From assembly GCF_009742825.1 (NCBI RefSeq), contig NZ_WPCE01000001.1, positions 1-64,000 of the forward strand: a stretch of 64,000 bases of DNA, in the 5' to 3' direction. The position numbers were made by a program, and so were the translations under genes. Positions 16,700-64,000 of this stretch are shown piece after piece. The stretch comes from Halorubrum sp. CBA1125 (GTDB lineage: Archaea; Halobacteriota; Halobacteria; Halobacteriales; Haloferacaceae). Under the pieces are notes generated by a model. The model did no database searches. It was not told where the DNA came from and worked only from the letters and a program-made list of their open reading frames with translations. The stretch's first letter is position 1. Each line of letters starts with the position of its first letter.

Positions 16700-16771
16700 A
16701 TCTTCAGCAAGCAGACGTTCTAACTAACCGGCTTTGTGAGGTACTGAGACTCGCTACTAAACTATATTTTA

Positions 16772-17914: not shown

Positions 17915-18048
17915 GTCAGGTACTCATTTGGTTGGATATTAAATCTGGGGATGAAATACAATTTATTGAAAAGTAAAATAGTTGAAATGATTTCAGTTTT
18001 CTACACTAACAAGGAGGGTGTCATAGAACTCTTCTCACACCTCGTTGA

Positions 18049-46033: not shown

Positions 46034-47532
46034 TGACATCCTCCACGGCCTTCAGGCCGTGGAATCCCGAACGTTGGGATATTACGGTTTGGAGTCTACC
46101 ACCTCTGCCTGCGGTTGGAATCCGCAGGTGAGGTCGTACAGGTAGACGCCGGGCTGTGCCAACCAGCCGGTACTCCTATCCCCAGACGGAGACTCGGAGT
46201 TACTTGTGCTGTCGGTGATATCTAGACGAATATTCTCTGCCCCGTTCACGTCGGCGTTACACGCCGCGTCACAGGACTCGCAGACGTACAAGCCGCGTTC
46301 AACACGCTGTCTCTCGTCTTTTTTTCCGCACACAGAACACGTCTTCGACGTGTCTTTCTCGTCCACTTCTTCCACGTCAATCCCTTCGACCTTCGCCTTA
46401 TATTCGAGAATGCTGGTGAAGCGGTCGAAGCCCCACCCGTGCAGGTCAAGGTTGCCGTGCCGACCCCAGTTTTTCGACTCACCGTCATCGGCCTCTCGAA
46501 CACCGTCGAGGTCACCGACGTTAATCTGGCCAACACCCTTCTCGACGCACCGCTGGACGATGTGTTTGGCAAGGGCGTGAAAGAAGTGGGTGCGGCGCTC
46601 CGACCACTTGTGGTGCAGGCGGGTCGCCCGCTCACCACCACTGTCGTCGCATTTGGAAATCTCCTTCGGGAAGTAGTACCCGTCTTGTTTCAGGCGATTG
46701 GCGGGGTAGAGATCGGCCTCTTCCGTGCTGTAGGCAACGGCGGCGAAGTTGCTGATGCCGAGGTCGATGCCCGCCGTCTCATCGCCGGGCGGGGCTGGCG
46801 TCTCCACGTCTTTCGTGCAGACGAGGTGGAGTTCCCACCGCTCTTTCGCGTTGTTGTAGACGGCGCGGACTTGCTGGATGTTCTCCACCTCAACGTCTGG
46901 GCGCGTCTCGTATTCGACGAGGATGTACTCCCGAGCGCGGGGGTGGTCCTTGTGGTTCGCGCCTTTGGAGAGGCGGACGCGATTGTGTTTGGAGTCGTGA
47001 CGGAAGCCGTTCTGCTTCCACGTGACCGTTGAACGGGGGTGTTCTTCGTGGACGCGGCGGCCGTGATCGTCGTAGTAATTTTCTTTGCGGTAGCCGGGCG
47101 GATTATCCCGGTCGTCGTCCGAGGAGTACCATGAGTTGAAGGCTTCAGCGAGTTCCTCCAGAACCCGCTGACTGGACTGGCTGTGCAGTCCTCGGTACTT
47201 GTCGTGATCCTTCAACTCGCGTTTGAGTTCTTCGTGGTCGGGAATCTCGCCTATCTTCTCCCATTGTTGGCGGGCGTAGTAGTTGGCGACGTTCCACAGC
47301 TTGCTGGCTGACCACCCGTGGCGATCAAGCGACTCCGCGACCTGTGTGTGGTTGCGGATTTTCGTTCGGTGGGTGCGGTGGACTTCCAGCATCTGTCGAA
47401 CGTCTTGTATAACAGGTTATACTCGTCTCGCTTGTGAAATTTGATGTCTGGCGATGGAATATCCGAGCCTGCAATTGGAATGGTGGGTTGCTGCCCACCA
47501 TGTCGGCTTCATCACCCGCCTGAAGGCGGGTG
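46034..47532 (-). mobile_element. IS200/IS605-type element carrying tnpB only
   Basis: The right end is TGACATCCTC followed by the hairpin CCACGGCC/GGCCGTGG (46043-46062). The left end contains the hairpin CACCCGCC/GGCGGGTG (47513-47532). One gene, tnpB, lies between; there is no tnpA. The element cut the ATPase gene at 45364. The missing 3' part of that gene is not found on the far side, so DNA was probably also deleted. Confidence 0.75.
46082..47392 (-). CDS. tnpB: TnpB-family RNA-guided nuclease-like protein
   Basis: A 436-residue TnpB of a different subgroup from the one at 37565. RuvC-I is ETAGIDLGISNFAAVAYS. The zinc ribbon CSVCGKKDERQRVERGLYVC is followed by ESCDAACNADVNGAENI with the RuvC-III aspartate. 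The RuvC-II strand reads GQINVGDLDGVRE, lacking the usual Glu before D-L. The N-terminal helical region (SASKLWNVANYYARQQWE) is intact. The frame is open from start to stop, so the protein is probably made. Confidence 0.8.
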   Translation of the reverse strand: MLEVHRTHRTKIRNHTQVAESLDRHGWSASKLWNVANYYARQQWEKIGEIPDHEELKRELKDHDKYRGLHSQSSQRVLEELAEAFNSWYSSDDDRDNPPGYRKENYYDDHGRRVHEEHPRSTVTWKQNGFRHDSKHNRVRLSKGANHKDHPRAREYILVEYETRPDVEVENIQQVRAVYNNAKERWELHLVCTKDVETPAPPGDETAGIDLGISNFAAVAYSTEEADLYPANRLKQDGYYFPKEISKCDDSGGERATRLHHKWSERRTHFFHALAKHIVQRCVEKGVGQINVGDLDGVREADDGESKNWGRHGNLDLHGWGFDRFTSILEYKAKVEGIDVEEVDEKDTSKTCSVCGKKDERQRVERGLYVCESCDAACNADVNGAENIRLDITDSTSNSESPSGDRSTGWLAQPGVYLYDLTCGFQPQAEVVDSKP

Positions 47533-47673: not shown

Positions 47674-47775
47674 CCAAGGTAGCGTCTGAACGGTACCGAA
47701 ATATCTCCACCCAGTTGTAATGACAAGTAAGTACACGTCATAACATATATGCCATTCCGTGCCGAACTACAGAGT

Positions 47776-48102
47776 ATGAGTGGGTCAAGCTACGATAAGA
47801 CGATACAGTTCCGTGCTGGAGCCGAAAAGGAGGCAGCGGAGCTACTCGATGAGATCCACATCGGGGGCGTCAACGTGAGTGAACTCGCTCGCGTCGGGTT
47901 GGTCGAAATGCTGCGTCAGTCGTTAGACGAACAGGACGAGATCGCGGTCTACGAACGCTATAGTCGCGGAGAGATCGGTGAAGACGTAGCTCGTGTCCTT
48001 CTCGGTGAGAAAATTGAGAGAATGGAAGAGGAAAAAGCGTCGTTCGAGACGGCGATGGAACGGGACACGTCTGAATTTCTCGCCGGTATAGATGGCGAGT
48101 GA
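47776..48102 (+). CDS. Putative antitoxin of a PIN-domain pair
   Basis: A 108-residue acidic protein starting MSGSSYDKTIQFRAGAEKEA. The N-terminal 50 residues (strand, then AAELLDEIHIGGVNVSELAR and VGLVEMLRQSL) look like a ribbon-helix-helix DNA-binding domain. The C-terminal half is a charged helix suited to binding a toxin. I chose the ATG at 47776 because a CATATATG box (about 47743-47750) lies 26-30 bases upstream, fitting a leaderless transcript. It overlaps the PIN gene by 11 bases. Confidence 0.65.
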   Translation: MSGSSYDKTIQFRAGAEKEAAELLDEIHIGGVNVSELARVGLVEMLRQSLDEQDEIAVYERYSRGEIGEDVARVLLGEKIERMEEEKASFETAMERDTSEFLAGIDGE

Positions 48103-48706
48103 CACTCGCCACCCGATACTGGTCGATACGAGTTCGTTGATTGCTGTTGGAAACACCGATCAGTGGAATGTACTGAAAGACGCGATCCGTCTCACAACGA
48201 CAAACGTCTGTCAGCACGAGCTCCGAAACCACGTCAACTCGAATACGTACCCACCGGAAGGAAGCCGGGAGCACTACTTGAAACGAGGAAGCCAGCGTGT
48301 TCTCGAACAGCTAAATGAGGAGTCGTCCCCGTGGTCGTGCGTGACTGTCGTTCCTCGCCCGCATGGACCAGACGCAGGCGAACAGTCGCTTAAGCAGGAA
48401 CTTTCCGAACATGGTTCTTCGTGTCAGATCGTGTCGATTCTTGACTCAGCTGCGAGACGCTCAATTCGCCGTCTCATTGACCATAACGGGTACGAGATAG
48501 ACGTCGTCGGGCCACCATATCTTCTCTATATCCTGCTTGACAACGATCTTATCTCAAAGGCCGAGTTCTGCGAGGCTACCGTAGAGATGATTCGCACAGA
48601 AGGCTGGACTGGGTACGAGGTGGTGAAGAACGCGTGGACCAGTATTCCCGTCGATTGTGCCGATATCCTTGACAACGAGTATGACGACGTCCTCCCGCCG
48701 GGCTGA
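48092..48706 (+). CDS. PIN-domain-like protein (putative RNase toxin)
   Basis: A 204-residue protein. The N-terminal strand HPILVDTSSLIAVGNTDQWN carries the first conserved aspartate of PIN nucleases. CQHELRNHVN and, further on, VSILDSAARRSIRRLI contain further acidic residues. The C-terminal half (EIDVVGPPYLLYILLDNDLI) resembles PIN proteins in which a helix-rich tail carries EF-AT-VEMIRT. Placed directly after and overlapping a small antitoxin-like gene, it is probably the toxin of a VapBC-like pair. The family call is moderately certain. Confidence 0.65.
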   Translation: MASDTRHPILVDTSSLIAVGNTDQWNVLKDAIRLTTTNVCQHELRNHVNSNTYPPEGSREHYLKRGSQRVLEQLNEESSPWSCVTVVPRPHGPDAGEQSLKQELSEHGSSCQIVSILDSAARRSIRRLIDHNGYEIDVVGPPYLLYILLDNDLISKAEFCEATVEMIRTEGWTGYEVVKNAWTSIPVDCADILDNEYDDVLPPG

Positions 48707-49069: not shown

Positions 49070-50602
49070 CTATGACACTTTTTCAGCCAATTCAAGTACG
49101 GGGATTGTCCTCGGGTTCTCACCTCCATATCGGATCACATTTTCCTGGAAATCGAAGCGGATTGGCTTCCCCATATACGGTGAGCGTTCGACCTGGGATA
49201 GGGAATCAAGGTCGCCCAGTTTCCAACAGACGAATCGGTCGATGTGATTCAGCGGAGTTTCGTCCTCAAAGAAGTCGCTGAGTTTGACCTGTAACGAAGC
49301 GTTCTCTAACTCGCCTTCCGTATCGAGAATAGCATTCACTTCATCGTCCATCTGAAAGTCGGCTATCTTGATAGTCTCCGGTGCTCCATTAGCGCTGTAC
49401 CGCTCTAACATAGCAATAACCTCTGCAGAGTTCGACGGAGAGAGACCGCCCTGTTCTTCTGTGCGCTGTCGGCGTTCTTCGAGAGTGCTCTCTTGAGATC
49501 GGATACTCCGTTTCTTATCCTCCAACTTGCGCCGCTCAATGTACTTCTGGTACCAAGAGTCCTGGCACACCTTGGTCATAAACCGATCCAGCTCATCCGT
49601 AATCGCTTGATAAACGTCGCCGGATTTGTTGCGGATCTTCTCACGGTTAGCAGAGAGTTCGAGTTCCTGGCAGTTGGCAACGAAGAAGAAATGGAAGAAC
49701 TCGTTGTCGGCACCGATTGCATCGTTGTACCGTTCGACCTTGATGTGGTCTTTCGCTAGCCAGATGCCGAATTGAGCGGAGTGCTTGCCGTACGTCGGTA
49801 GCTCGTTCCTGGCTTCCTTTCCGCCTACCATCCCCACAACTTCAATCGTCAACTCACGCCCGTCATCAAGAGCTACGGTCAATTCTCTGGGGGGGTAGTG
49901 TTTGCACATCATCTCAGCGACGAGTTCACCATCCGGATCCCGGTTTTCAGGAGAAAACTCCAGACGATTATCGGTCTGGATTTGATCCCGTGTATCGTCG
50001 ATTGTAGAAGAGAGCTCGACGGTGATATCCATGCGGTGGAAATCGTCGGTGAAGTGCCAGGCGGTCGATCCACCGATGGTTTTCCATTTGATATAGTGCT
50101 CAATTTTGTTGTAGGTGAGCTTCTGGGGATCGAACCCTTGCCCTGCCCGGAATCCATGTACTTCAATCCGAGTTCGTGATGGTTCGTCAGTATCTGTCTT
50201 CTCGATTGAATAGGTGGGTAGTTCCCGGTTGTTAAGCTTCGCCCACGGCTGATTCATTACTGATTCGATCCGTGTACCGTCCTTGACCGTCTCCACACGG
50301 ATCTCATCACTCTTGTAGTAGATTTTAGTACCGTGTCCCTTGTATCCGATTGCGTCGTCCTTGTTGGAGTTACCAAGGTCGAAGAACGACGATAGATCGT
50401 CTTCGTCCATCCCGTGACCGTCGTCCTCGATAACGAGGGTGTTTCGACCCTCCTCATCCTGTTCGATGTTGATATCGACTTGCGTAGCGTCGGCGTCGTA
50501 CGAGTTCGATAGCGCTTCTCTGATGACCTCCAAGGGGTCTTCAAAGTCGCTAGCTATCTCGATGAACTCGTTGACCTCGTTGACTTGTGGTGTCTTATGC
50601 AT
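49070..50602 (-). CDS. GHKL (HSP90/MORC-type) ATPase of the Dpd-like island
   Basis: A 510-residue protein. The N-terminal Bergerat fold is complete: N-box VIREALSNSYDADA (N33), G1 box EDDGHGMD (D61-x-G-x-G) and the G2 loop GYKGHGTK (residues 86-92). A transducer-like region follows, then helices with charged residues (KYIERRKLEDKKRSIRSQES). No histidine-kinase acceptor helix is seen, so it is a conformational ATPase like MutL, MORC or Hsp90. Its start overlaps the TGT gene upstream by 8 bases. It could sense modification state or clamp DNA; that role is inferred. Confidence 0.75.
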   Translation of the reverse strand: MHKTPQVNEVNEFIEIASDFEDPLEVIREALSNSYDADATQVDINIEQDEEGRNTLVIEDDGHGMDEDDLSSFFDLGNSNKDDAIGYKGHGTKIYYKSDEIRVETVKDGTRIESVMNQPWAKLNNRELPTYSIEKTDTDEPSRTRIEVHGFRAGQGFDPQKLTYNKIEHYIKWKTIGGSTAWHFTDDFHRMDITVELSSTIDDTRDQIQTDNRLEFSPENRDPDGELVAEMMCKHYPPRELTVALDDGRELTIEVVGMVGGKEARNELPTYGKHSAQFGIWLAKDHIKVERYNDAIGADNEFFHFFFVANCQELELSANREKIRNKSGDVYQAITDELDRFMTKVCQDSWYQKYIERRKLEDKKRSIRSQESTLEERRQRTEEQGGLSPSNSAEVIAMLERYSANGAPETIKIADFQMDDEVNAILDTEGELENASLQVKLSDFFEDETPLNHIDRFVCWKLGDLDSLSQVERSPYMGKPIRFDFQENVIRYGGENPRTIPVLELAEKVS

Positions 50603-51854
50603 AGGTTGTGTCTGTTTCCTCGAAGTATGGGTTAATTCGTTCGTTGATTAGCTGGTAGGCGAACTTCCGGAAGCCTTTCTGATCCTTCACGGCCTCCTCC
50701 AGATACTCAGCCACCCGTTCTTTGTCTCCCTCAGCGATCAATTGGCGGAACTTGCGAAGCTCCCGTTGCTGAACCGCGAGATTATGCGCTGCCACCGAGC
50801 CGAGGATATCCTTCTGATACAGGTCCTCCATCTCGTTCCGCATGCGTGCTCGGTGGAAGTCATCGTTACAGACGCGGCACTCACAGGAATCGAAGTTAGC
50901 TTCATCAATCGGAACAGTCTCGAACAGGTTGACGCAATACTTCCCGTTGATCGCTTGGTGTAGGTAGGAGGCAGAATCGAAGGTATCGGCCCCGACAGCA
51001 ACGAGTAGCGGCATTGCGTTACCCGAGATCCCTAATACGTGTAGAGGGAGCTCGTCATACCCTCGCTGTTGCATCTCCCGCTTACAGTCGGATACTGCTT
51101 CGACGAGAACCTCAACGTTGTCTTTTCGCGGAACGAGGCTACCCAACGCAATCCCGTCGAACGCTTCGGGGATTGGTTCTGCGAGTTCGTCTTCAATGAG
51201 GTCGAAGGAGCGTTCGAGCATCGCTTCATAATAGCCATGCACCGTGAGGTAGCAGGCCCCGTCAACCTCGTCACGACGCTCTGCGAAGCGGGCAGCGTTG
51301 GCGGCTGTCTGCTCCATCTTTTCGATCCGCTCCTCGAACTCGTCATCCGGATGGATCGGGTGATCCAGGTTGACCACGATGTCTGGTCCTAGAGCCAGCT
51401 GTATATCCAGCGCCTTGTCCTGATCGATGTCCTTCTCGAAGTCCTTACCTTCTAGACCACCCTGCTTCAGGATTTTGTAGCCGCCGGAGTCTGCGAAGAT
51501 CATCCCGTCATAGTCGCTGAAACAGTCCCACTCGCGGATTTCATTGTTGAGATACCATTCCAGCTTCTTCTCCCGAATGCCGTAGTCGGCCAGGGAGGAA
51601 ATCGAAGTCATCACCCCGTGGAAAAGGTCACTGTAGTCTTCACCACCGGTGACTTCGTTATCGTGAGCGAGGAACTCCTTTACCGTACGGTGGACACCGC
51701 CACCAAATAGCGCGCCCTCGTTGCCACCGCCGTAGAAGTTGATCACCGGGAACAGGTGCGGGGTTTCCAGGGTACGGTCGTTAATCTGGAGCTGGCCACG
51801 TCGTGCCTCGCCTGCCTCCGCAACAACATCGAATGAGACCATACTGTCAGTCAC
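50595..51854 (-). CDS. TGT-family transglycosylase, DpdA-like (first copy)
   Basis: A 419-residue TGT without a PUA domain. D122 in ADSGGYKIL (substrate/base-binding aspartate), D293 in GADTFDSASYL (nucleophile), and the zinc site C324-x-C326-x2-C329 with H357 are all present. The GISGNAMPLL segment lies where TGTs bind the base. The loop after D293 (SASYLHQAINGKY) is archaeal in style. Canonical archaeal TgtA carries a PUA for tRNA; its absence and the island context favour DNA as substrate, exchanging guanine for preQ0. The start at 51854 overlaps the DUF6884-like gene by 8 bases. Confidence 0.85.
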   Translation of the reverse strand: MTDSMVSFDVVAEAGEARRGQLQINDRTLETPHLFPVINFYGGGNEGALFGGGVHRTVKEFLAHDNEVTGGEDYSDLFHGVMTSISSLADYGIREKKLEWYLNNEIREWDCFSDYDGMIFADSGGYKILKQGGLEGKDFEKDIDQDKALDIQLALGPDIVVNLDHPIHPDDEFEERIEKMEQTAANAARFAERRDEVDGACYLTVHGYYEAMLERSFDLIEDELAEPIPEAFDGIALGSLVPRKDNVEVLVEAVSDCKREMQQRGYDELPLHVLGISGNAMPLLVAVGADTFDSASYLHQAINGKYCVNLFETVPIDEANFDSCECRVCNDDFHRARMRNEMEDLYQKDILGSVAAHNLAVQQRELRKFRQLIAEGDKERVAEYLEEAVKDQKGFRKFAYQLINERINPYFEETDTTYA

Positions 51855-52326
51855 CGTGCACTGGAATGGAACGGCCGCTGGAAACCAAGTGCTTCAGCCG
51901 CTTTCCTTTCATCCCGATACCGGTACCTTCGATGTAGTCAACGGGTACATCAACGGCAGATTCAACCCCATCGATAGCGGGAAGATAGTCCTTTCCAAGA
52001 TTGATCCATACCTTGTCATACCCGTTAGTAGTGACTTTGCTGGCAATAGCGCTGACGACTTGGTCGTTCAGTTCGTCAGCGCGTTCTGTGTCCATCCGAC
52101 GGTCATAGTATCCGATTTCCTGATCAGGTTCTACAACCCCGTGCTCCGCAGATATAATCATAATGTCAATTTCAGACTGAAATCGACCCGTCCGCAATGC
52201 CTTTTTTATGATCCTGAAGAAGTATCCATCGTACAAATCGAGAGCAGGAACCGGTGTATCCACCTGTTCCTTCGTTGCAGAACACGATTGGACTAATAAC
52301 GACGTCATATACTCTGCTGATCGCAT
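51847..52326 (-). CDS. Free-standing ArcS-core-like (DUF6884-type) protein
   Basis: A 159-residue protein. LLVQSCSATKEQVD (C15-x3-K19), then DIMIISAEHGVVEPDQEIGY and YDKVWINLGKDYLPAID align by eye with the C-terminal domain of the TGT fusion at 52386 (ILPCSQEKPY, VSISGLYGPVPEDFEEADPV, FDHILAYTTNKAYRQAID). It is therefore a relative of the archaeosine-synthase core, keeping the C-x3-K pair but not KPY. It is encoded between the two TGT genes and overlaps the first, so it may assist that TGT in trans. An alternative start is ATG at 52308. Confidence 0.7.
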   Translation of the reverse strand: MRSAEYMTSLLVQSCSATKEQVDTPVPALDLYDGYFFRIIKKALRTGRFQSEIDIMIISAEHGVVEPDQEIGYYDRRMDTERADELNDQVVSAIASKVTTNGYDKVWINLGKDYLPAIDGVESAVDVPVDYIEGTGIGMKGKRLKHLVSSGRSIPVHGD

Positions 52327-52385: not shown

Positions 52386-54287
52386 TTACCGTGAACTGGT
52401 AAATCGGCCAACGAGCTCGTCGATATTTTCACTGCGGAAGTGCTCGGTCAACTGGAGCGCTCGCGGGTCGGACGGATATATCTCGCCGCGACCGTACTGG
52501 GTAAACGCTTTGTCAATCGCCTGGCGGTAGGCTTTGTTGGTCGTATAGGCCAAGATATGGTCGAATTTCTCACCGTATTGGTTCAGGTACTGTACGAGCC
52601 GATTCGCAACGAGTTCAACCTGGTCGTTATCGGCAGTCGTCAATACGTACTCGTAGCTCATCACCGGGTCAGCCTCCTCGAAGTCCTCAGGTACTGGCCC
52701 ATATAACCCTGAGATGGACACCTTATGATATCGCTCACGGTAGTCCTCAAGACGGGAGAGGACAGCCTGGTGTGTCCGTGACTCCGAATACGGCTTCTCC
52801 TGGCTACAGGGTAGAATCAGTAGTACATTTGCCTCGCTCGGCGGCTGATAATCGTCGTGCTGGAGGATGTCGAAGTCGTTTGGCCCATGCTTCAACGAAA
52901 TGGTCCGTTTCTTCCGTGTCGTGTCCTCAACTCCTTCGAGGAAGCTAGATAGCTTGGTCTGGAACGTCTCGTCATCCGGCCCTGCAACTAACCCCTCGTA
53001 ACCGATGTCTGCAAGTTGCTCGCGGAGTTCTGGGTTGTGTAGCTGAGCCCGCTTCAGCGCTTTCTCTACGATATTCTTCCCCTGAGCGAAGTTAGCAACA
53101 CGTTCGAGTAAACGCCCCTCGTCAATAGCGTCACGAACTTGTTGCATCTGGCGGCTGTACAGCTCGAAGTTATGATGAGCTATCTGTGCGTAGTATTCGC
53201 TCTTGAAATGCGTCCCGTGCTCACCCTCAATGGGCTTGTTACTGACCTCAGATTCTAGCAGGGCGTGTCGCATATCGTCTAAGTGGATGTTCTGACAGGC
53301 CTGACAGTCACAGGGCCAGTCATCCCAGTCATCAATCTGATCAAGACTAATCCGTTGCCAGGTGTCGGGGTGGATGAACTTCTTGTTCCGAGCTGCGTAC
53401 TGATAGCTCCTCGAATCGAACGTATCTACCCCGAGGAGAGATAGGAGAGGACAGAGCCTCCCGCTTATTCCGAACACGTGGAATGCGATTTCGTCGTAAC
53501 GGTCCTCAGGTATCGCGTCTCTTGCCCCTTGAACGATATCGACCAAGGTATCTGGAGAGCTGCTGAGAGGGACAAGTGAACCGAGAGCGAACCCTTCGAA
53601 GGCCTCATCAAGTTCATCGGCACGGTCCAAGAATTGGCTGACATACCAGTTGACATCCTCGTAGTTGTGGCCATGTATGGCCACATACATAGAGGGCGTC
53701 TCCTCCAGCTCGCGTTCGTCAAGCAACTGGAGAGTCTCAACCGCGTTATCGATACTCTTCTCCATCCGTTCAGTGGTTTCTTCCTTATTCAGGTTCTGTG
53801 GAATCGGAAAGTCCAACGTGGCAATGATATCCGCGCCGTAGTCCAGCTGCAAGTCCAAGATGCTCTCTGGATTCGTGTAGATATCCCAGTCGTTCTCACT
53901 ACCGCCTTCGCCAGGCGTCTGTCCGAACTTCGTCGAGTTCATCAGCTTAAATCCGCCCGAGTCGATGAATAGCGGTTGATCAAACCCGGGTTCAACGTCA
54001 CTCTCCTCGAAATGCTGTTTGAGCGGTTTCTCACGCCACTCCTCCAAATTGTCAGGGGTGAGATTGTAGTCGAGAAACGACATCGCTTGAAACATAATCC
54101 CCTGGACATTGTCGCTCTCGAAGAGGTGCCGACGGGTATACCGCCAGATACCACCGGATTCTGTTGTTGTCCCTCCGATTAGATTTACCACAGGCAGAAG
54201 CTCGGGCGTCTGAATACGGCCGGCAGGCGTGTCTATTTCGCCTCGACGGCCGTATGCAGCCTTTCCAAGAGTCCTGAATGCCGACAT
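52386..54287 (-). CDS. TGT fused to an archaeosine-synthase (ArcS) core domain
   Basis: A 633-residue fusion starting MSAFRTLGKAAYGRRGEIDT. Residues 1 to about 400 are a complete TGT: D109 in IDSGGFKLM, D291 in GVDTFDSRSY, zinc ligands C326, C328, C331 and H372. Residues about 485-633 are an ArcS-type core with P493-C494-x3-K498-P-Y-x2-S503-x2-H506, the exact PC-x3-KPY-x2-S-x2-H motif whose lysine or neighbourhood acts on preQ0 in tRNA archaeosine synthesis. Unlike ArcS, the TGT half keeps its catalytic residues, and no PUA follows. One enzyme could thus insert preQ0 and add to its nitrile. Confidence 0.85.
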   Translation of the reverse strand: MSAFRTLGKAAYGRRGEIDTPAGRIQTPELLPVVNLIGGTTTESGGIWRYTRRHLFESDNVQGIMFQAMSFLDYNLTPDNLEEWREKPLKQHFEESDVEPGFDQPLFIDSGGFKLMNSTKFGQTPGEGGSENDWDIYTNPESILDLQLDYGADIIATLDFPIPQNLNKEETTERMEKSIDNAVETLQLLDERELEETPSMYVAIHGHNYEDVNWYVSQFLDRADELDEAFEGFALGSLVPLSSSPDTLVDIVQGARDAIPEDRYDEIAFHVFGISGRLCPLLSLLGVDTFDSRSYQYAARNKKFIHPDTWQRISLDQIDDWDDWPCDCQACQNIHLDDMRHALLESEVSNKPIEGEHGTHFKSEYYAQIAHHNFELYSRQMQQVRDAIDEGRLLERVANFAQGKNIVEKALKRAQLHNPELREQLADIGYEGLVAGPDDETFQTKLSSFLEGVEDTTRKKRTISLKHGPNDFDILQHDDYQPPSEANVLLILPCSQEKPYSESRTHQAVLSRLEDYRERYHKVSISGLYGPVPEDFEEADPVMSYEYVLTTADNDQVELVANRLVQYLNQYGEKFDHILAYTTNKAYRQAIDKAFTQYGRGEIYPSDPRALQLTEHFRSENIDELVGRFTSSR

Positions 54288-54431: not shown

Positions 54432-54899
54432 ATGGCTCAAGACCTATCTAGAGAGTACCCCCTCACATCAGAGGATCTCTCCGAGGGTGAACGAACCTTA
54501 CACGTCGGACGTGACCAGCCGATTCGCCTGAGTACAGGACACCGGATTCTACACCATGACGGCAAGTGCAGCCGTCCTCATGGGCATAACTACAAAATCA
54601 GCGTCTCGATAACTGGCACCCTGACCAGCGAAGGATGGGTCATCGACAAGGGAGACGTCACTTCTGTATTATCTGAGTGGGATCACCGATTTCTCGTGGA
54701 GAAAGGCGATCCACTGATCGAGGCTTTTGAGGCCAGCGGCGACGACGATGCCCTAATCGTGCTCGACCAGCCCCCGACAGCCGAAGTGATGGGGATCGTT
54801 CTTGAACGACGGCTGGAGGAAACATTGCCGGAGACGGTCAGTAATGTCGCAGTTGAGGTTCGAGAGACCGGTGAGCTCGCTGCCGGAGAGGCCCTATAG
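54432..54899 (+). CDS. queD: 6-carboxytetrahydropterin synthase
   Basis: A 155-residue QueD/PTPS-fold enzyme. STGHRILHHDGKCSRPHGHN carries the zinc histidines and the catalytic cysteine; WDHRFLVEKGDPLIE and the later PTAEVMGIVLERRLEE contain the other catalytic residues. It converts dihydroneopterin triphosphate to 6-carboxytetrahydropterin, the first step from the GTP cyclohydrolase product to preQ0. An N-terminal extension of about 25 residues is longer than in bacterial QueD. It is the first gene of the plus-strand queD-queE-queC operon, 4 bases before queE. Confidence 0.9.
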   Translation: MAQDLSREYPLTSEDLSEGERTLHVGRDQPIRLSTGHRILHHDGKCSRPHGHNYKISVSITGTLTSEGWVIDKGDVTSVLSEWDHRFLVEKGDPLIEAFEASGDDDALIVLDQPPTAEVMGIVLERRLEETLPETVSNVAVEVRETGELAAGEAL

Positions 54900-54903
54900 A
54901 GCA

Positions 54904-55686
54904 ATGCCGGTGAATTCGGATGTTCCAACGGTTGAGGAGGGTTCTACTGGCACAGAAACGAAGGACGGGCTGCCAGTGAATGAATTGTTCTACTCGTTAC
55001 AAGGCGAAGGGAAGATCGCCGGGATGCCGAGCGTGTTCGTTCGGACGAGTGGTTGCAATCTCCGGTGCTGGTTCTGTGACTCGTTCCATACCAGCTGGGA
55101 GCCGACCCACGCCTGGCTCGATATCGATGCCGTCATCGACCGTGTCACCGATTATGAGAAAGCAAACCATGTCGTCGTGACCGGCGGTGAACCATTACTC
55201 CACGATGAGACCACCGAGCTGTTAGACCGCCTCAGCGACACCGGCTACCATACTACTGTCGAAACCAACGGTACGATCTATCACGATACTTCCATCGACC
55301 TTGTGAGCATCAGTCCAAAACTGGCGAGCAGCACTCCGACCGCGGCAAAGGACCCGCAGGGCGATGGAGAATGGGCTGACCGGCACGATGATCGAAGGAT
55401 CGATATAGACGCCCTCTGCAAGCTGGTGGAGACCTATACTTTCCAGCTGAAATTTGTAGTCACAGATAGAGATGATATGCCCGAGATCAACCGGTTAGTT
55501 GATCAGCTCCGGGACGCCGCAGATACGGTGATTCAAGATTCAGACATTTTGTTGATGCCGGAGGGTTCGACCCGTGAACGATTGTCAGAAACCCGCGAAC
55601 TGACCGCTGAGATAGCGATGGAGCACGGATATCAATATACGCCCCGGCTTCACGTTGATCTCTGGAATGACGCTCCGGAAACGTAA
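54904..55686 (+). CDS. queE: 7-carboxy-7-deazaguanine synthase (radical SAM)
   Basis: A 260-residue radical SAM enzyme. After a variable N-terminus, LPVNELFYSLQGEGKIAGMP leads to SGCNLRCWFCDS, the C-x3-C-x2-C cluster motif, then VVVTGGEPLLHDE (GGE) and YHTTVETNGTIY. SISPKLASS is the family's substrate-loop region. It rearranges 6-carboxytetrahydropterin to CDG. The ATG at 54904 follows the queD stop by 4 bases; the longer frame from 54802 only overlaps queD. The product feeds QueC. Confidence 0.92.
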   Translation: MPVNSDVPTVEEGSTGTETKDGLPVNELFYSLQGEGKIAGMPSVFVRTSGCNLRCWFCDSFHTSWEPTHAWLDIDAVIDRVTDYEKANHVVVTGGEPLLHDETTELLDRLSDTGYHTTVETNGTIYHDTSIDLVSISPKLASSTPTAAKDPQGDGEWADRHDDRRIDIDALCKLVETYTFQLKFVVTDRDDMPEINRLVDQLRDAADTVIQDSDILLMPEGSTRERLSETRELTAEIAMEHGYQYTPRLHVDLWNDAPET

Positions 55687-55703: not shown

Positions 55704-56414
55704 ATGACGACTAATCAAGCAGGTAGCACGGAAAGTGCGGTTATCCTTGTATCGGGCGGAATGGATAGTGCGACTGCAGCTTTTGAGGCGAAGCACAGGG
55801 GGTATGACTTGTACTTCCTCCACACGACCTACGGCCAACAAACAGCGGACAAAGAGTCAGAGTGCGCCCGAGCATTGGCCGACTATATGGATGTCGCGGA
55901 CTTCCTTCACATCGAAACAGACCACTTAGCCCGGATCGGTGCTTCCAGCCTCACTGACGAGAACATCGATGTCGAAGAAGTCGATCTTGATAGCGATGAG
56001 ATACCGTCAAGCTACGTTCCGTTCCGGAATTCGAACCTGCTATCGATGGCTACGTCGTACGCTGAAGCAAACGACTGTGGGGCCGTCTTTATTGGTGCAC
56101 ACAGCGAGGACTACTCCGGTTACCCGGATTGTCGCCCGGAATTCTTTGATGAGTTCCAACAGGTCATAGATATCGGGACGAAACCAGAGACGTCAATCGA
56201 ATTGGTGGCACCGTTCGTGGATTGGACGAAAACAGAGATCGCGGAGCGTGGGCTAGACCTCGATGTTCCGTACGAGCTTACGTGGAGCTGTTACCGCGAT
56301 GAAGAACCAGCCTGTGGTACTTGCGATGCATGTGCCTACCGACTCAAAGCATTCCAAGACGTAGGAATGAAGGATCCGATTAGATATCGAGAGCGCCCTA
56401 GCTACAGTGATTGA
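55704..56414 (+). CDS. queC: 7-cyano-7-deazaguanine (preQ0) synthase
   Basis: A 236-residue ATP-dependent ligase. The PP-loop SGGMDSATAAFEAK, then LHTTYGQQTADKE, PFRNSNLLSMATSYAE and FIGAHSEDYSGYPDCRPEF are conserved. The zinc ligands lie in WSCYRDEEPACGTCDAC. It converts CDG to preQ0 using ammonia and ATP. With QueD and QueE it gives the complete path from dihydroneopterin triphosphate to preQ0 inside the island. The GTP cyclohydrolase (FolE-type) is not in the window and must be elsewhere. Confidence 0.93.
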   Translation: MTTNQAGSTESAVILVSGGMDSATAAFEAKHRGYDLYFLHTTYGQQTADKESECARALADYMDVADFLHIETDHLARIGASSLTDENIDVEEVDLDSDEIPSSYVPFRNSNLLSMATSYAEANDCGAVFIGAHSEDYSGYPDCRPEFFDEFQQVIDIGTKPETSIELVAPFVDWTKTEIAERGLDLDVPYELTWSCYRDEEPACGTCDACAYRLKAFQDVGMKDPIRYRERPSYSD

Positions 56415-56991: not shown

Positions 56992-57441
56992 TCAAAGTCC
57001 TAGCTCTGTATCTAAGTAGGTGCTAACGCTTCCGTACTCATTCTCCATAATTTCACAGAGCTCACGGTTGACCGTCAGACCACTGTGAGTGATATTTGCA
57101 GATCCTACGTACACCAGTTCGGGGCCCACGACGGCTTTCGCATGTAGATCATCTACGGTAGTCATCGAGGTATTTCCCATACGGGAGACGAGGGAGCGCA
57201 TGTAGTCGTTGTGTTGTTCGCCAGTACGAACGTAGAAATCGACATCCGTGCTCAGCTCTCTAATCGCCGCGGACAGGGAAAGTCGTCGGCTTGACAATTT
57301 ATCGGTGAGTGGAAAGCGCAGTTCCACATCGCTAAGCCAGGGCGAACAGATCGCCACACGTTGGGCGTGAACGAGAGAGTACCCAATAAAGTACGAGAGT
57401 CCACTAGAGGGTAAAGAAAACGCTCGTACCATCGATCTCAC
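56992..57441 (-). CDS. Phospholipase D-like nuclease, DpdK-like
   Basis: A 149-residue single-domain PLD protein. RVAICSPWLSDVELRF, FYVRTGEQHNDYMRSLV and DDLHAKAVVG with the H-x-K motif, followed by YVGSANITHSG (GSxN), define one catalytic half-site; a homodimer would make a full active site. Single-HKD PLD nucleases accompany helicases in Dpd (DpdK) and DISARM (DrmC) systems. Its start overlaps the helicase gene's 3' end by up to 38 bases; the start at 57441 or 57432 cannot be decided. Confidence 0.75.
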   Translation of the reverse strand: MRSMVRAFSLPSSGLSYFIGYSLVHAQRVAICSPWLSDVELRFPLTDKLSSRRLSLSAAIRELSTDVDFYVRTGEQHNDYMRSLVSRMGNTSMTTVDDLHAKAVVGPELVYVGSANITHSGLTVNRELCEIMENEYGSVSTYLDTELGL

Positions 57442-60400
57442 CTCCTGGAAGCATCTCTCGCTCGATCATTTGCGACGCGGAATCTTCGGAGGGAACTCTT
57501 TCGATCAGCATCTCTCGGAGACGTTCAAGCAAGACGTAGCTCAAGCTTTCCGACTGGTCGTGTGCCGATATGCACTCCGCTAAGTGTAGGTTCTCGACAC
57601 AACCGTCGATATCCGGAGAGAAAAACAGGGATTTCACCCGATCAAGGTCTCCAATGTCGTGTGGCATTTTTCTGACCGCATCAGCAGGGAATTCATTGTT
57701 GCCCGCTACCTGCTCTTTTGAGACGGTCTGTTTGATTCGGTATGCCGTTTCGGTTGAGATGCCTTCCTCACTCGAAAGCTGCCTAGCTCGATCAATCGAG
57801 GAAAGTACTTCATCCACGATCAGATCGACGATATCGGGGAAGATGGGAGTTTCATCCATATCGCGGACAACTTCTCGAACGGTGTGTTCGTCTGGGTCTT
57901 CCGGTATTTGTTCCACGAAGTCCTCCGATGCCCAAAGCCTCTCGTTGATGACCTGGGGATTATAGCAGATATGGGTCAGCGCATTTAGTGCCGTACCCGG
58001 ATCGGTCTGGAGGTCTTCGTAAACCAGATCAACGATGCCTTGGCCACCCTGTGACCGCTCAAACACATATACCTCGTCGGCTTCGTGATCAATCCCGTAG
58101 AAGAGCATACTTGGATTGACTCCGCCAATATCGGCGACCAACTGGGTGAAACAGTGCGCCGCTGTATGCCGAGCCACCTCGTTGAGAGATAACTCATTCA
58201 GCGACTTGTAGCGACGTACCCGTTTCTTAGTCTCTTCGTCAATATCCGACGCGTAGTCGCCTAGGTCGAAAATCAACCCTCGGGTATCGAGCGAGAAACC
58301 CAAGGACCGATCCCCGGCCGTGATCTCCTGAGAAATCCGATCCTCGCCGGTGAATATGAACTCATTTTCTTCACCAACAGGTCGTGCCGGTGTGATTTCG
58401 AGAGATACTCCCGTGAGAGTCACTTTCCCGGTAATGTCAGCGAGGGTTGCTCTCCCCCGTGTCGCTTCCTCTTGACGCCCTTCAAGTCTAGTCTCTACTT
58501 CCGGGTTAGAATGGATTTTTCCGAACGCCCTATCGTTATGACGTAAGCACCGATCCTCTTTAAGAATCTGGAAACACTCGGGACAGTACCTGACGATATT
58601 CAGAGCGCGACCGCCGCTGAGATCTTCTATATCGTCAAGAGTGATAGAGTCCGGAGTAATCATGCCGTCGCGCCGGTCACCGGGGACGTCCTCAAAGGAG
58701 AATCTGACCCCGTCATCATCAGCAATGGTTTCGGGTAGGTAGGCTTGCAAATGACCTGCCTCTTGTTGATACTCGCTACGGTACGGAGCATAGGTCTGAA
58801 CGAGTTTGTCTATAGACTGTTCGTCGCCATTCTCATCGTCCTCCCCATAGAACACCGTGAAGTACTTTCCAGCATCTTGGAAGTAGTTCGGGGGAACGTA
58901 CCAGACAGTGCCTTCAAGCGAACGGTCGTCAACTTTCAGGAACCGGTCATAATAATACGCCCCTCGAAGGAGATGCTTGACGTAGTACAGGCTCTTATCG
59001 TTCTGTTCAATAGAGTTGTATTCGTCGAGCTGAGTCAGCGCCTGTCGGAGATAGTAGATCTGTTTACGCTTCGTTGCCGTCTTATCGAGCTCCTCGCTTT
59101 TAATGGCGCGGCTGGCTGTATCAACGCGGTCAACCACCTGATCAACGGATGTCGGTAGTTCTGGAAGGTTAACAGACTCGTATTCTCGGTCAACGACACG
59201 CCGGAGTCTCTCGACGTCACTCGTTATCCCGTAGAGATCAGGGATCAGATCGTCTAATGCTTCGATCTGTTCAGTAGGCGGAGTTTCAGCGAGGTTTGTG
59301 ACGGAGGTTCGAAGCTCTTCTAAAGTTGATTCCAAGGCATCGAGCTGTGATTTGACCTTCTCTTCGGTACTGACATCGGAATCTTCGATCTCGTCGATTA
59401 GCGCTTGTCGCTGGCTACAGAATTCCAAGAAATCAGTTCTAATCTCTGAGACTAGAGACCGGGCCAAGTCTTCTCTTTGCATGGACTGCCCAACATGATC
59501 CTCGATGAGATCCGCGATCTCGGGCTGTGTCACGTCCTCCCGGAGCTCGGACAGAACCTGATCTACAGTCTCAACCGGCTCCTCTCCATGTAATGCAGGG
59601 AGCTGACTCTCACCCACGTCAATTCCGAACTCTCGGCGCAATACAGCTGCAGGTTCCGTGATGAACTCGTAGTACTGTGTGTAGCCCAGTTCTGAACAGA
59701 GGAACCGTTCGAGGAACTCTTCCTTCCGGTCAATCGACCCAGAGAACCACTCTTTCGAGACAGCTGTTGATGTTTCGTAGAACTTCTCGAACTGGTCGTG
59801 GATCCAGGCAATCACGTGATTATCGGTCTTCAATGGCGTTCGAATCTCAGACCCGAGGAAACGGTCGGCACGATAGAACATATTCGCGTCCTGAGTGAGA
59901 TCCGAGAGAAATACGACAATGTGTGAGTCGGTGTCTTCCTTCCTCGCTGCTCGTCCCGCACGCTGAATGAATGACGACAGATCCCATGGCGTCCGATACT
60001 GCGTGACGATAGTAATCTCACCGACGTCGATCCCGACCTCAAGGAAGCTCGTCGAGAGCAGGAGGTCGCTCTCGGCTGTAGCAGCAGCGTCGAACCCAGC
60101 GTCTGAGTAGACAGATTCGAAGCGGAGTGAAGATTCGATGAACTCGCAGTCCATCTCCTTAGCTACCCGATCCCAGTTAGAGAAATCGGTTCCAGTTCTG
60201 TGATACCGCCAGAGTTCGTTTGCTCGATCAGCGTCCTCCAGTTGCGCCCTCTTTTGGTTCACTTGGCTTATACTGTCGATGAATGAGAGGATTTTCCCGC
60301 GCTCACCGGTCTCGCTGTTCAAGAGGCTATGTCCAAGCAACATCAATTGCTGGATGGCCATCGATGAGACCCCAGGACCTTCCTCCGACGTTTTGAGGAA

Positions 60401-61516
60401 GTAGTAGTGCTCCTTGTCCTCGTGGTCCGTTCGGAAATCTGAGTCGGGCGGCGCGACTGATTCAACTCGTCCACTTGGAACGGGAAAGAGATCAGTAGCA
60501 AATCGCTGTGGATCATCGACCGTCGCGCTTGAGCCTAGCCAGAGCAGCGAATGGTCCGTTATCGCCTCGATATTTTGTGCTATATTTGCAGTATGTGCTC
60601 CTCTGAGCCCGGTGTACAGGTGTACTTCGTCGAATACAATCGTATCGGCCCGGTCAATGATGTTGTAGTTCGGTTTGAGTGAGAATAGCTCCAGAGATTC
60701 TAACGTCGTCAGAAGAATGTCCGGCCCAGGCTGATTTTTGATATCAGTCCGATTAAGCACGATCTCCCGGTCAGAGAAGGAGTGTGCATCATTGTTCTCG
60801 CAAACAAGTCGGTAAGTCGAACTTCCTCCTTGGTAGGTGAATGAGTGAGTTTCGTCGTCTCCACACCAGCAATCGGCGAGCTTGAATCGACGCGTACCAT
60901 GCTGATTAGCGAAAAATGCGTCTTTCCTTTCAACCTCTGATGACGTATACGGAGTGTTGCTGGTCCATACCCCAACAGAAAGGCTGGTGTCGTGCTCTGT
61001 TCTAAGGTTGTACAGGTGTTCTAGAATCCGTCCAAGTTGGTCCTGTAGGAGAGCCCGACTCGGATAGACGACGATTGCCAAGTCCTGTTGATCTTCTGCT
61101 AACAGCTGATAGAGTGGGCCGAGGAACGCTTCTGTCTTTCCGAAGCCAGTGGGTGCCGAGAAGATCGCACCACGTGAGTTGTTGGATGACCGTCGATCCG
61201 CATCAAGGTCGCGGATCAACTGCCAGCTTTCGACCTGAAAGTCGAGTGGCTTGAAATCGAAGAGGTCGATGATATCAGCAACGAACTGGTCGTCACCAGT
61301 GTATTTACTCGTGGCTCGTCGATCCTGTGGCCTCTGTGTGTACTTAACAGCATCCGTGATATAGGGGGGATTGGCTTGGTCAGCATCAAATATCTGGGTA
61401 TTTGAGAGAAACCCGCGAATCAGCGGTTGGATATCATCAGGGATTCGTGAGGCATTCGAGTTCCGATCAAAGTACTTCATGTAGTCGAGTTGTTGGAGAT
61501 GGTCACGATGCCGCAA
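57404..61516 (-). CDS. Large DEAH-box helicase with DUF1998-like tail, DpdJ-like
   Basis: A 1370-residue SF2 helicase. Walker A FSAPTGFGKTEAF (K127), DEAH box TIVFDEVHLYTG, SAT motif LLWLGSSATVDD, motif V LLLSTSFLEVGIDVGEI and motif VI FIQRAGRAARKE are intact. A cysteine-bearing insertion (LADCWCGDDETHSF) follows motif Ia. Coiled coils fill the middle (about 640-790). A zinc-ribbon-like CPECFQILKEDRC precedes a DUF1998/MZB-like end (ARHTAAHCFTQLVADI, VFERSQGGQGIVDLVYE). This plan, next to a PLD gene, matches DpdJ and recalls DISARM DrmA. It probably translocates on DNA to restrict unmodified targets. Confidence 0.8.
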   Translation of the reverse strand: MRHRDHLQQLDYMKYFDRNSNASRIPDDIQPLIRGFLSNTQIFDADQANPPYITDAVKYTQRPQDRRATSKYTGDDQFVADIIDLFDFKPLDFQVESWQLIRDLDADRRSSNNSRGAIFSAPTGFGKTEAFLGPLYQLLAEDQQDLAIVVYPSRALLQDQLGRILEHLYNLRTEHDTSLSVGVWTSNTPYTSSEVERKDAFFANQHGTRRFKLADCWCGDDETHSFTYQGGSSTYRLVCENNDAHSFSDREIVLNRTDIKNQPGPDILLTTLESLELFSLKPNYNIIDRADTIVFDEVHLYTGLRGAHTANIAQNIEAITDHSLLWLGSSATVDDPQRFATDLFPVPSGRVESVAPPDSDFRTDHEDKEHYYFLKTSEEGPGVSSMAIQQLMLLGHSLLNSETGERGKILSFIDSISQVNQKRAQLEDADRANELWRYHRTGTDFSNWDRVAKEMDCEFIESSLRFESVYSDAGFDAAATAESDLLLSTSFLEVGIDVGEITIVTQYRTPWDLSSFIQRAGRAARKEDTDSHIVVFLSDLTQDANMFYRADRFLGSEIRTPLKTDNHVIAWIHDQFEKFYETSTAVSKEWFSGSIDRKEEFLERFLCSELGYTQYYEFITEPAAVLRREFGIDVGESQLPALHGEEPVETVDQVLSELREDVTQPEIADLIEDHVGQSMQREDLARSLVSEIRTDFLEFCSQRQALIDEIEDSDVSTEEKVKSQLDALESTLEELRTSVTNLAETPPTEQIEALDDLIPDLYGITSDVERLRRVVDREYESVNLPELPTSVDQVVDRVDTASRAIKSEELDKTATKRKQIYYLRQALTQLDEYNSIEQNDKSLYYVKHLLRGAYYYDRFLKVDDRSLEGTVWYVPPNYFQDAGKYFTVFYGEDDENGDEQSIDKLVQTYAPYRSEYQQEAGHLQAYLPETIADDDGVRFSFEDVPGDRRDGMITPDSITLDDIEDLSGGRALNIVRYCPECFQILKEDRCLRHNDRAFGKIHSNPEVETRLEGRQEEATRGRATLADITGKVTLTGVSLEITPARPVGEENEFIFTGEDRISQEITAGDRSLGFSLDTRGLIFDLGDYASDIDEETKKRVRRYKSLNELSLNEVARHTAAHCFTQLVADIGGVNPSMLFYGIDHEADEVYVFERSQGGQGIVDLVYEDLQTDPGTALNALTHICYNPQVINERLWASEDFVEQIPEDPDEHTVREVVRDMDETPIFPDIVDLIVDEVLSSIDRARQLSSEEGISTETAYRIKQTVSKEQVAGNNEFPADAVRKMPHDIGDLDRVKSLFFSPDIDGCVENLHLAECISAHDQSESLSYVLLERLREMLIERVPSEDSASQMIEREMLPGGEIDGTSVFFTL

Positions 61517-61538: not shown

Positions 61539-62213
61539 TTACGAGAGAGTCACTTCGAGATAGTCTGCGAGATCGGACTCATAGAGGCGATTGAGTTCCT
61601 CTTCCGAGAGCGCTGCCAATGTTAGCCGTTCGTCGTCCAGTAACCTGTCAACGAGGTCATTGAGCGGGGTATCCCGGTATGGGCCAAACAGAGCGTCCTT
61701 TGCCTCCTCTAGTGATTGACGCATAAAGTGACCGTACTCTCTGGCCTCCTCTTTCCGCTGGTCGATTTGATCCCCTTCAATCTGTGCCTCCCAGTTCCAG
61801 TTATCGAGGAGGGTATCGAGCGCATCTAACTTGTCTGGGTCTACCCGCTCAACCCGCTGGTTCAACCGAATCATGCCTCGGACAGTGTTGTGGACGTCGA
61901 TTCTCGCTTGGTGAACGAAGTTGTTGACCTCCCTCCGTTGAGCTTCGACAGCTTCGCGGGTTTCGGGAAGTCGTTTTGCGAGAGCATCGTAATCGTCCTG
62001 CTCTAACAGAGATCTAGCCTCTTCGACCGCGTGTTTCGCCTCAGAGTCTATCTCAACTTTAGTCTGGAAGAAGGCTTCAGCAAGAACTCGTTCGAGAATC
62101 GTTTCCTCCATCGTTTCTGCGAGCTCGTCTAGTTCTGATTCTAGACCTTGCCGCCGGTGCTGTTCGTAAATCGTTTCAAGCTGATCCTGAAACGTACTGG
62201 AATTAGCTGACAT
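61539..62213 (-). CDS. Coiled-coil protein in the DpdI position
   Basis: A 224-residue, highly charged, almost all-helical protein (ETIYEQHRRQGLESELDELA, DALAKRLPETREAVEAQRRE, VNNFVHQARIDVHNTVRGMI). No enzymatic motif is visible. It lies between the helicase gene (22 bases downstream) and the DpdH-like gene (11-base overlap upstream), so all are probably one transcript. By position and size it could be the DpdI-like component, perhaps an adaptor joining ATPase and helicase. Function unknown. Confidence 0.55.
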   Translation of the reverse strand: MSANSSTFQDQLETIYEQHRRQGLESELDELAETMEETILERVLAEAFFQTKVEIDSEAKHAVEEARSLLEQDDYDALAKRLPETREAVEAQRREVNNFVHQARIDVHNTVRGMIRLNQRVERVDPDKLDALDTLLDNWNWEAQIEGDQIDQRKEEAREYGHFMRQSLEEAKDALFGPYRDTPLNDLVDRLLDDERLTLAALSEEELNRLYESDLADYLEVTLS

Positions 62214-63999
62214 AGTGATCGCTCACCTCCTTGAACCGCTCACCGAGACCTCCCCTGTTTTCACCGTTACTGCTCGCACCATCGATTGGGACAGATCGGA
62301 ACCGCTTCACGACTGGTGTAGCTGCCAGCTTCAGTGAAATCAGTGCTGCCTGAATCTGGTCTCGGGTGTTTCCCATACGGAGGTTATCGGCAGTATCAGC
62401 CGCCTCAACAGCCATATCGACATCTGCTTGAGAGTAGTCAATGAACTTCGCCAGTTCCTGTTGGAGATCAGGATTCACGTTATCATAGGTTCTGAGATTA
62501 GACACAAGTTCGGAAACTCGGTCCATATCGAGCGTGGAGAATTCCGAGTTAATCTTCTCTATCAGTTCACGGTCGTAGCCGTGGTCCGCTACTTCTTCGA
62601 GAGCTTGGCGTACATCGTACATCGTGTCCGCAATCGACCGGACATAAGCATCCTGTCCAAATCGAACGCGGCTATCTATCTCTGCGATGTATTGCCGACC
62701 GAGCATGTTGAGAACCTCGTACGGTGGATTCCGGTTCAGCCGTGTCCTGATCTTCGGGACGTCCAAGCTCCCCCCGGAGACGCCCAATAGCTTCCCCACC
62801 ATAGCTTCGATGTGATCGGCAGAGTCCATCGCTGTCTTGATGTGGTCGTACTCTTCCTGCGAGAGGATCTCAGTAATCTGTTCTTCAAGATGTGGATCAA
62901 CCGAGAAAGCGTTGTCCTCACTGAAGCGTTCATTAATCGCGGTCGCATCGATGTTGCGCCACGGAGAGTCAAGCATCACCAGATGAACGTATGTAGCTAA
63001 GACGAAATCCGTGAAGTCATAATCTGCACTCCCTTTGTAGAACACCTTCTCCCCGTTAAGATATTCTTCGATCAGCATTTGACGCCACTGTAGGGCGTAG
63101 TACATCAACTGAGTCCCGCACTCTGTGAGAAGCGAATCAACGTCAGCACTCCGCGGTTCCTCTACCCGGCGGATTCCGTATTTGAGTATCTTCCGGAGGT
63201 CAGATCTTCTGAAATCACGTCTGTCAAGCAGAATCTGATCTATTTCCGGTGAGTCATCACTCTCAACGTAGACGAACGGATCCTTCTGACTGCTAAGCCG
63301 ATATTCGAGTTTGGTTCCTTCGTAAAGTTTGAACCCGTCCGTGAGATGTTCGATAGCATCCCTGAGCCCCTGCCGGATGAAGCGGTTTGTCTTAGCGTAC
63401 TCTTCTGGATTTTCAAGCCAAGAATCCACTAAGCCGTTGTGTTTCTCGATTAGCTTCTCGACACGACTCTTCTCCGGTGTCGTTGTTTGGTCGGTACTAG
63501 ACGACTCCTCGTCTTCTTCCGTCTGTTCGCTCTGTATTTCCGGCTCAGAGGGGGAAACCCCCGCACTGGGAATGATGATACCGTCATCGGTTACATCGAC
63601 AACGGCAGGGGCCCCGTCTTCTAGAAGGTGGAACGCTTCCGCAAAGCGCCGATCAACCGTGATTTGATTATCTTCAACGCTACCGTACCATTTCGCTAAG
63701 TCCGCAAACTCTTCGGCCTCTTCGTACACTTCGTCTGCCGCGGATACGGTATTCCGAAGCCGTCGGAGGGAGCTTGCGCTTGAGGGTGCTTTGGCATGAC
63801 CTTCATACCACTCTTCCAGAACTTCAAAGATCTCCATTATATACTCTCGCGGTGACTGCTGACTTTCGTCTAAGCCCGTGTAGATTCGGCGAAGGAAGGC
63901 CTGGTTAAACGGGAACAGGTCACGGAACGCTTCGTCGCAGAAGCCACACTCTGCACAGAGAGATCCGTCCGGTGCGGGCAGCAGTTCGAAGTCGCCATT
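62203..63999 (-). CDS. DpdH-like protein, 5' end outside the window
   Basis: The frame is open to the right edge, so the first ATG at 63837 is not the true start: upstream residues CAECGFCDEAFRDLFPFNQA and FLRRIYTGLDESQQSPREYI are in frame and look structured. The LFPFN...FLRRIY segment resembles the end of AAA/P-loop ATPase domains. The visible C-terminal 598 residues are helical with an acidic linker (about 90-120 after M63837). A C-x2-C-x2-C cluster lies near the edge. By operon position next to the DpdI/DpdJ/DpdK-like genes I infer DpdH; Walker motifs would be outside. Confidence 0.6.
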   Translation of the reverse strand, partial: NGDFELLPAPDGSLCAECGFCDEAFRDLFPFNQAFLRRIYTGLDESQQSPREYIMEIFEVLEEWYEGHAKAPSSASSLRRLRNTVSAADEVYEEAEEFADLAKWYGSVEDNQITVDRRFAEAFHLLEDGAPAVVDVTDDGIIIPSAGVSPSEPEIQSEQTEEDEESSSTDQTTTPEKSRVEKLIEKHNGLVDSWLENPEEYAKTNRFIRQGLRDAIEHLTDGFKLYEGTKLEYRLSSQKDPFVYVESDDSPEIDQILLDRRDFRRSDLRKILKYGIRRVEEPRSADVDSLLTECGTQLMYYALQWRQMLIEEYLNGEKVFYKGSADYDFTDFVLATYVHLVMLDSPWRNIDATAINERFSEDNAFSVDPHLEEQITEILSQEEYDHIKTAMDSADHIEAMVGKLLGVSGGSLDVPKIRTRLNRNPPYEVLNMLGRQYIAEIDSRVRFGQDAYVRSIADTMYDVRQALEEVADHGYDRELIEKINSEFSTLDMDRVSELVSNLRTYDNVNPDLQQELAKFIDYSQADVDMAVEAADTADNLRMGNTRDQIQAALISLKLAATPVVKRFRSVPIDGASSNGENRGGLGERFKEVSDHYVS

Positions 64000-64000
64000 C

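Follow-up and report, generated by a model that had tools for sequence, protein, structure and literature searches.

Gene Content of the Island

The window analyzed here, a stretch of 64,000 nucleotides, comes from a metagenome-assembled genome (MAG) that is 84% complete. On its minus strand lies a gene for a 633-aa protein (52386..54287) that joins a TGT to an ArcS core (DUF5591), identified by its ORF, Pfam, alignment, a tree and an AlphaFold model. The reading frame begins with ATG at 54287, ends with the stop at 52386 and is open throughout. Three further genes point in the same direction, with overlaps at the two joins among them, and encode a DUF6884 (DpdC-family) protein of 159 aa (51847..52326, minus strand; PF21818, E 9e-14), a second, stand-alone DNA-type TGT of 419 aa, hereafter TGT2 (50595..51854, minus strand; Pfam, alignment and tree), and a GHKL/HATPase protein (49070..50602, minus strand; PF13589), which by gene order in ~30 loci is a fixed neighbor of TGT2. 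DUF6884, TGT2 and HATPase form a fixed unit in these loci, and the fusion stands beside or near it. TGT2 is catalytically complete (D122, D293, zinc C324/C326/C329/H357). One genome (G141, 96% complete) has the fusion and lacks TGT2, and two others (G211 and G055) have TGT2 and lack the fusion, so neither protein seems to need the other. Divergent from the fusion gene are queD (54432..54899, plus strand) and queE, a radical SAM CDG synthase (54838..55686, plus strand), both assigned by profile matches, and queC, the preQ0 synthase (55704..56414, plus strand; PF06508, E 9e-73). By eye we noticed a TnpB/IS1341-like transposase gene with a zinc finger at the island edge (46082-47392, minus strand), and two overlapping small genes resembling an antitoxin and a PIN-like toxin (47749-48706, plus strand).

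The dpdC product carries a DUF6884 domain (PMC11888242), and all 26 of the 26 members of the DUF6884 family matched the PADLOC DpdC model. The 159-aa protein agrees with DpdC by this domain alone, at half the length of the bacterial DpdC models. Its structural model (pLDDT 90) was closest to YaaA (Z 11.2) and to the ArcS-core protein AF0587 (Z 9.3), with the next best match at 7.4. By these matches the protein is of the DpdC type, and its fold family is that of the ArcS core. Moreover, the ArcS-core profile PF17884 weakly matched the DUF6884 gene of another genome (L078:7100-7357, i.e., G297:C39:57100-57357; E 2.8e-4), and this supports a shared ancestry of the two domains at the sequence level. 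Beyond CSxxK they have little in common. The DUF6884 protein is probably the nitrile-acting partner of TGT2. In all, the island encodes a pair of complete TGTs as well as two domains that share one nitrile-associated fold.

Beyond queC, a gene for a DpdK-like phospholipase-D (PLD) nuclease (56992..57441, minus strand; PADLOC DpdK E 2.6e-11, NF041068) is followed by one for a DpdJ-like YprA helicase of 1370 aa (57404..61516, minus strand; PADLOC DpdJ E 1.6e-53, NF041067). By gene order, a conserved helicase module of six genes has as its last member the gene for a 224-aa protein (61539..62213, minus strand) and also includes the gene at 62203..64000 (minus strand); the module runs past the window to an ARMADA/Druantia-type (DruE-type) YprA helicase (C224:66833-71569). 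The module occurs repeatedly; the fusion directly precedes it, on the same strand, in five loci. A strict tie of one fusion to one helicase was rejected; the two are associated (19 of 28 fusion genomes vs 0 of 12 in a comparison set that was not random). Both close YprA helicases were missing from 8 of the 28 fusion genomes; a link to restriction thus does not hold throughout.

BRIGADE is a published but uncharacterized defense class, which the main text of its preprint describes only in halophilic archaea (PMC12458937). The features given there are shared by the fusion island: a haloarchaeal host, a deazaguanine gene cluster, a PLD nuclease and a pair of YprA helicases, of which one is ARMADA-like and the other belongs to the Dpd branch, with clade placement by profile scores. 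On gene content, the fusion island therefore matches a BRIGADE-type, Dpd-related defense island. TGT, transglycosylase and archaeosine are unmentioned in the main text of the same preprint. This match, the DpdC-type neighbor and the catalytically complete 419-aa TGT were all absent from an earlier note on this DNA, which had been made from the sequence alone.

Domains and Active Sites of the Fusion Protein

The TGT half spans residues 13-402 (53082..54251, minus strand; Pfam PF01702, E 8.4e-31, and alignment), and the ArcS core half spans residues 478-602 (52479..52856, minus strand; Pfam PF17884 (DUF5591), E 1.5e-18). In the alignment with the Zymomonas mobilis TGT, D109 and D291 corresponded to the two catalytic Asp residues and D159 to the base-binding Asp, while H205 occupied the position of Gln203 in the bacterial enzyme. 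The zinc site is of the CCCH type (C326, C328, C331 and H372). The fold, the two catalytic Asp residues and the zinc site of the TGT superfamily are thus all present. The core carries an exact PC-x3-KPY-x2-S-x2-H motif from P493 to H506 (PCSQEKPYSESRTH), within which lie C494, K498 and S503. A PUA domain was not detected by the Pfam scan, and ~30 residues remain after the core. The earlier note had described a complete TGT (D109, D291, CCCH), an exact core motif and a missing PUA, and the Pfam results and the Z. mobilis alignment confirmed this description. It had also proposed comparing a predicted structure of the TGT half with TGT: the AlphaFold model (mean pLDDT 79) superposed in this half on ArcTGT (1j2b) with Z 34.9 (VIA-align). 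A structure search with the whole model returned matches that were taken up by the TGT half.

Conservation and Distribution of the Fusion

Further fusions of TGT with PF17884, which the earlier note had suggested looking for, were found as full-length homologs in 28 of 293 genomes of the haloarchaeal order, at ~48-97% identity. The residues D109, D159, D291, H372, P493, C494, S495, K498, P499, Y500 and S503 were invariant in 29 aligned homologs, which places the observation far beyond chance. The last residue of the motif, H506, was replaced by Q in 3 of 33 homologs. The zinc cysteines were kept in nearly all homologs, about half of them with shifted spacing, and were lost in one (L071). The TGT-ArcS-core fusion is a conserved family and not a chance joining.

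Among 393 genomes of the phylum, matches were restricted to the haloarchaeal order. The nearest copies (97% and 94%) occur in other families, and many genomes of the same genus have no fusion island; hence, the island is mobile. Three scans of viral contigs yielded no relatives of the fusion or TGT2, and phage records gave just weak matches to TGT or the core, so a viral origin was rejected. An island on a Haladaptatus plasmid encodes two divergent fusions, one on each strand (L106:14001-16022 and 16736-18700), plus the stand-alone TGT.

Relationship to ArcS, ArcTGT, and DpdA

Euryarchaeal ArcS (TgtA2) resembles the fusion in having a TGT-fold N-terminal half and, after it, a DUF5591 core in which the motif is identical. 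However, ArcS misses the TGT segment that bears the first catalytic Asp and the base-binding Asp and has a PUA domain, and the fusion is the opposite in both respects: in the alignment it keeps D109, D159 and D291. The statement of the earlier note that the N-domain of ArcS, unlike that of the fusion, has lost catalysis agrees with this. The fusion scored 124 bits against the NCBIfam ArcS equivalog, for which the cut-off is 440. Its core was 31% identical to canonical ArcS cores over 111 columns (hhalign 98.8%, E 6.7e-17), sharing the whole motif, G530, V532 and P533 (GxVP), E537, Y545, Y587 and R588. Between the core and the C-terminal ArcTGT domains hhalign found no match, and the idea that they are homologous was rejected. 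In the TGT-domain tree, the TGT half of the fusion grouped with TGT2 and plasmid DNA-type TGTs, and a split with moderate support (96/89), long branches being involved, separated this group from ArcTGT, ArcS and bacterial Tgt. The idea that the entire protein descends from ArcS through loss of PUA was rejected on two grounds: this placement among DNA-type TGTs, and the presence in the TGT half of residues that ArcS lacks. On these comparisons, the best reading is that a DNA-type TGT acquired an ArcS-type core.

The fusion resembles bacterial and phage DpdA, the DNA preQ0 transglycosylase, in being a TGT that probably acts on DNA and in lying in a dpd-type island alongside queDEC and DpdJ-like and DpdK-like genes, but known DpdA proteins have no DUF5591. 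The fusion matched none of the DpdA models of NCBIfam and PADLOC, and TGT2 scored 26.8 against a cut-off of 200. The conserved His196 of DpdA was dropped as a DNA signature since, in the DpdA of phage 9g, it seems to coincide with a His common to archaeal TGTs.

Fusions of the DpdA-DpdC type also place a TGT and a domain of the YaaA/ArcS-core fold in one protein. They differ from the fusion in that the partner is DUF6884 and not DUF5591, the TGT lineage is different, and the cyanobacterial order is reversed: in the Picosynechococcus DpdA, DUF6884 is N-terminal and the TGT follows (plasmid L109:1074-3149). On two haloarchaeal plasmids, ~970-aa DpdA-like proteins have a C-terminal DUF6884 (L107:5945-8854 and L113:951-3857). 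Considering that a TGT is fused to a nitrile-associated domain with different partners, the joining of insertion and nitrile processing is recurrent, which suggests a solution that has arisen more than once. On the same Picosynechococcus plasmid a second, short TGT is flanked by two helicases (L109:6159-7082), again giving two TGTs in one island. In the neighborhood of the ~970-aa proteins are a 345-aa TGT and an ATPase of the BREX type; these proteins may be related to the TGT-containing BREX-related system of a BREX survey, which reported no DpdC homolog in that system (PMC12839542).

The nearest experimental precedent is Vibrio phage nt-1, which has DpdA2 and ArcS and contains dPreQ0, dADG and dG+ in its DNA (PMC6884629). 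There, insertion and ArcS-type enzymes are used on DNA, as proposed for the fusion, but the two are separate phage-borne proteins, whereas the archaeal fusion is one protein.

Coexistence with the tRNA Pathway

Canonical ArcS was found in 46 of 46 good-quality relatives searched and canonical ArcTGT in 8 of 8 genomes checked, and the fusion is an additional, patchy copy. In the 84%-complete MAG of the window canonical ArcS was not found, though all good-quality relatives have one; the contig of the fusion may also be mis-binned. The housekeeping ArcTGT of this MAG (G000:C205:1804-2842; L089), on a contig of 3.4 kb, occupies two reading frames, through either an assembly error or a real frameshift.

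The earlier note had seen no RaSEA, which is correct within the window but not for the genome: RaSEA is encoded at G000:C141:324-1289 (440 bits), outside the window, and its gene is unlinked to the fusion island. RaSEA, the enzyme that finishes archaeosine in tRNA, was present in 28 of 28 fusion genomes tested, that of the window included. The argument that the DNA base might be a preQ0-amino-acid adduct for want of RaSEA therefore loses its basis. It is improbable that the mature self-mark is such an amidine adduct, made by one protein, left unprocessed by RaSEA and read by the two YprA helicases.

Canonical ArcS, ArcTGT and RaSEA coexist with the fusion, so that a second tRNA set is not needed. 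ArcS joins lysine to the preQ0 nucleoside and does not accept free preQ0 base, and once preQ0-Lys has formed in tRNA, ArcTGT can no longer exchange it back (PMC11298593). Both properties fit insertion first and capping second.

Proposed Function of the Fusion and Alternatives

That one protein both inserts preQ0 into DNA and acts on its nitrile, as the earlier note had proposed, is probable from its domains and its DNA-modification setting. The fusion probably acts on DNA, and both of its halves are likely to be catalytic. The reading toward which we lean, with confidence only a little on the favorable side, is that the fusion serves a BRIGADE-type island of haloarchaea as its self-marking enzyme, inserting preQ0 into DNA and then capping the nitrile by means of its core. 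QueD, QueE and QueC would supply preQ0, and the N-terminal TGT half would swap guanine in DNA for it. Next, the ArcS-type core would join a nucleophile, in the simplest case the L-lysine used in tRNA, to the nitrile of the preQ0 now in DNA, and this capping would render the insertion irreversible. The genome-encoded RaSEA may cleave the adduct to yield 2'-deoxyarchaeosine as the presumed final base. This lysine-RaSEA route is held tentatively and falls short of an even expectation; water or ammonia is a possible nucleophile instead of lysine, and RaSEA may be inactive on DNA. TGT2 and the DpdC-like DUF6884 protein would form a parallel marking unit with dPreQ0 or dADG as the predicted product. 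DNA without marks would be the target of the helicases and the PLD nuclease.

This self-marking reading is supported by the invariance of both active sites, the coexistence of ArcS, ArcTGT and RaSEA, the placement among DNA-type TGTs and the missing PUA. It is also supported by the gene order with divergent queDEC, with DpdJ-like, DpdK-like and second YprA genes nearby, by the recurrence of fusions between TGT and nitrile domains, and by the nt-1 precedent. If the fusion instead acted on tRNA as an extra or replacement archaeosine enzyme, its origin from two tRNA-enzyme superfamilies would be natural, and ArcS tolerates minimal substrates (PMC11298593); yet it has no PUA, it coexists with canonical ArcS, RaSEA and, where checked, ArcTGT, and its presence is patchy and inside a defense island with queDEC, all of which makes this very unlikely. 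The core might, on the other hand, position the TGT as a DNA-binding or reader domain without any chemistry. YaaA, a fold relative of the core, is described as DNA-binding, which counts for this idea; nevertheless, PCSxxKPYSxSxTH is almost fully invariant across proteins only ~48-52% identical to the fusion of the window, and we regard a reader role as highly improbable.

A different division of chemistry would make the core a DpdC-like nitrile hydratase, the fusion alone producing dADG without lysine or RaSEA. The common fold of DpdC-type DUF6884 and the ArcS core, the PF17884 match in the G297 DUF6884 gene, the existence of TGT-DUF6884 fusions, and the occurrence of dADG besides dG+ in phage nt-1, which has an ArcS homolog (PMC6884629), all speak for it. 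However, GxVP, E537, Y545 and YR587-588 are retained in the core along with the entire ArcS motif, and of these DUF6884 has little beyond CSxxK; a DUF6884 gene for the nitrile step already adjoins the fusion; a hydratase is thus somewhat unlikely. Active TGTs are dimers (PMC6884629), and the fusion and TGT2 are close neighbors in nearly all loci, as would be expected if they formed a mixed dimer on duplex DNA that pooled the DUF6884 and ArcS-core activities. This we consider unlikely, since each of the two has a full active site and each occurs without the other (G141; G211 and G055).

Under the preferred self-marking reading, the poorly described BRIGADE class would gain a concrete marking enzyme through the fusion. 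The DNA of phages and haloviruses is known to contain deoxyarchaeosine, which in the literature examined is unreported as a cellular genome mark; the TGT-ArcS-core fusion is likewise undescribed in that literature, with an earlier or later description elsewhere being possible. Cultured carriers of the fusion include Haloprofundus marisrubri SB9, Natrinema mahii and Haloplanus ruber. A conserved archaeal enzyme joining insertion and finishing is directly testable in culturable haloarchaea, and we found the fusion in species of Haloplanus, Haloprofundus, Natrinema and Halorussus.
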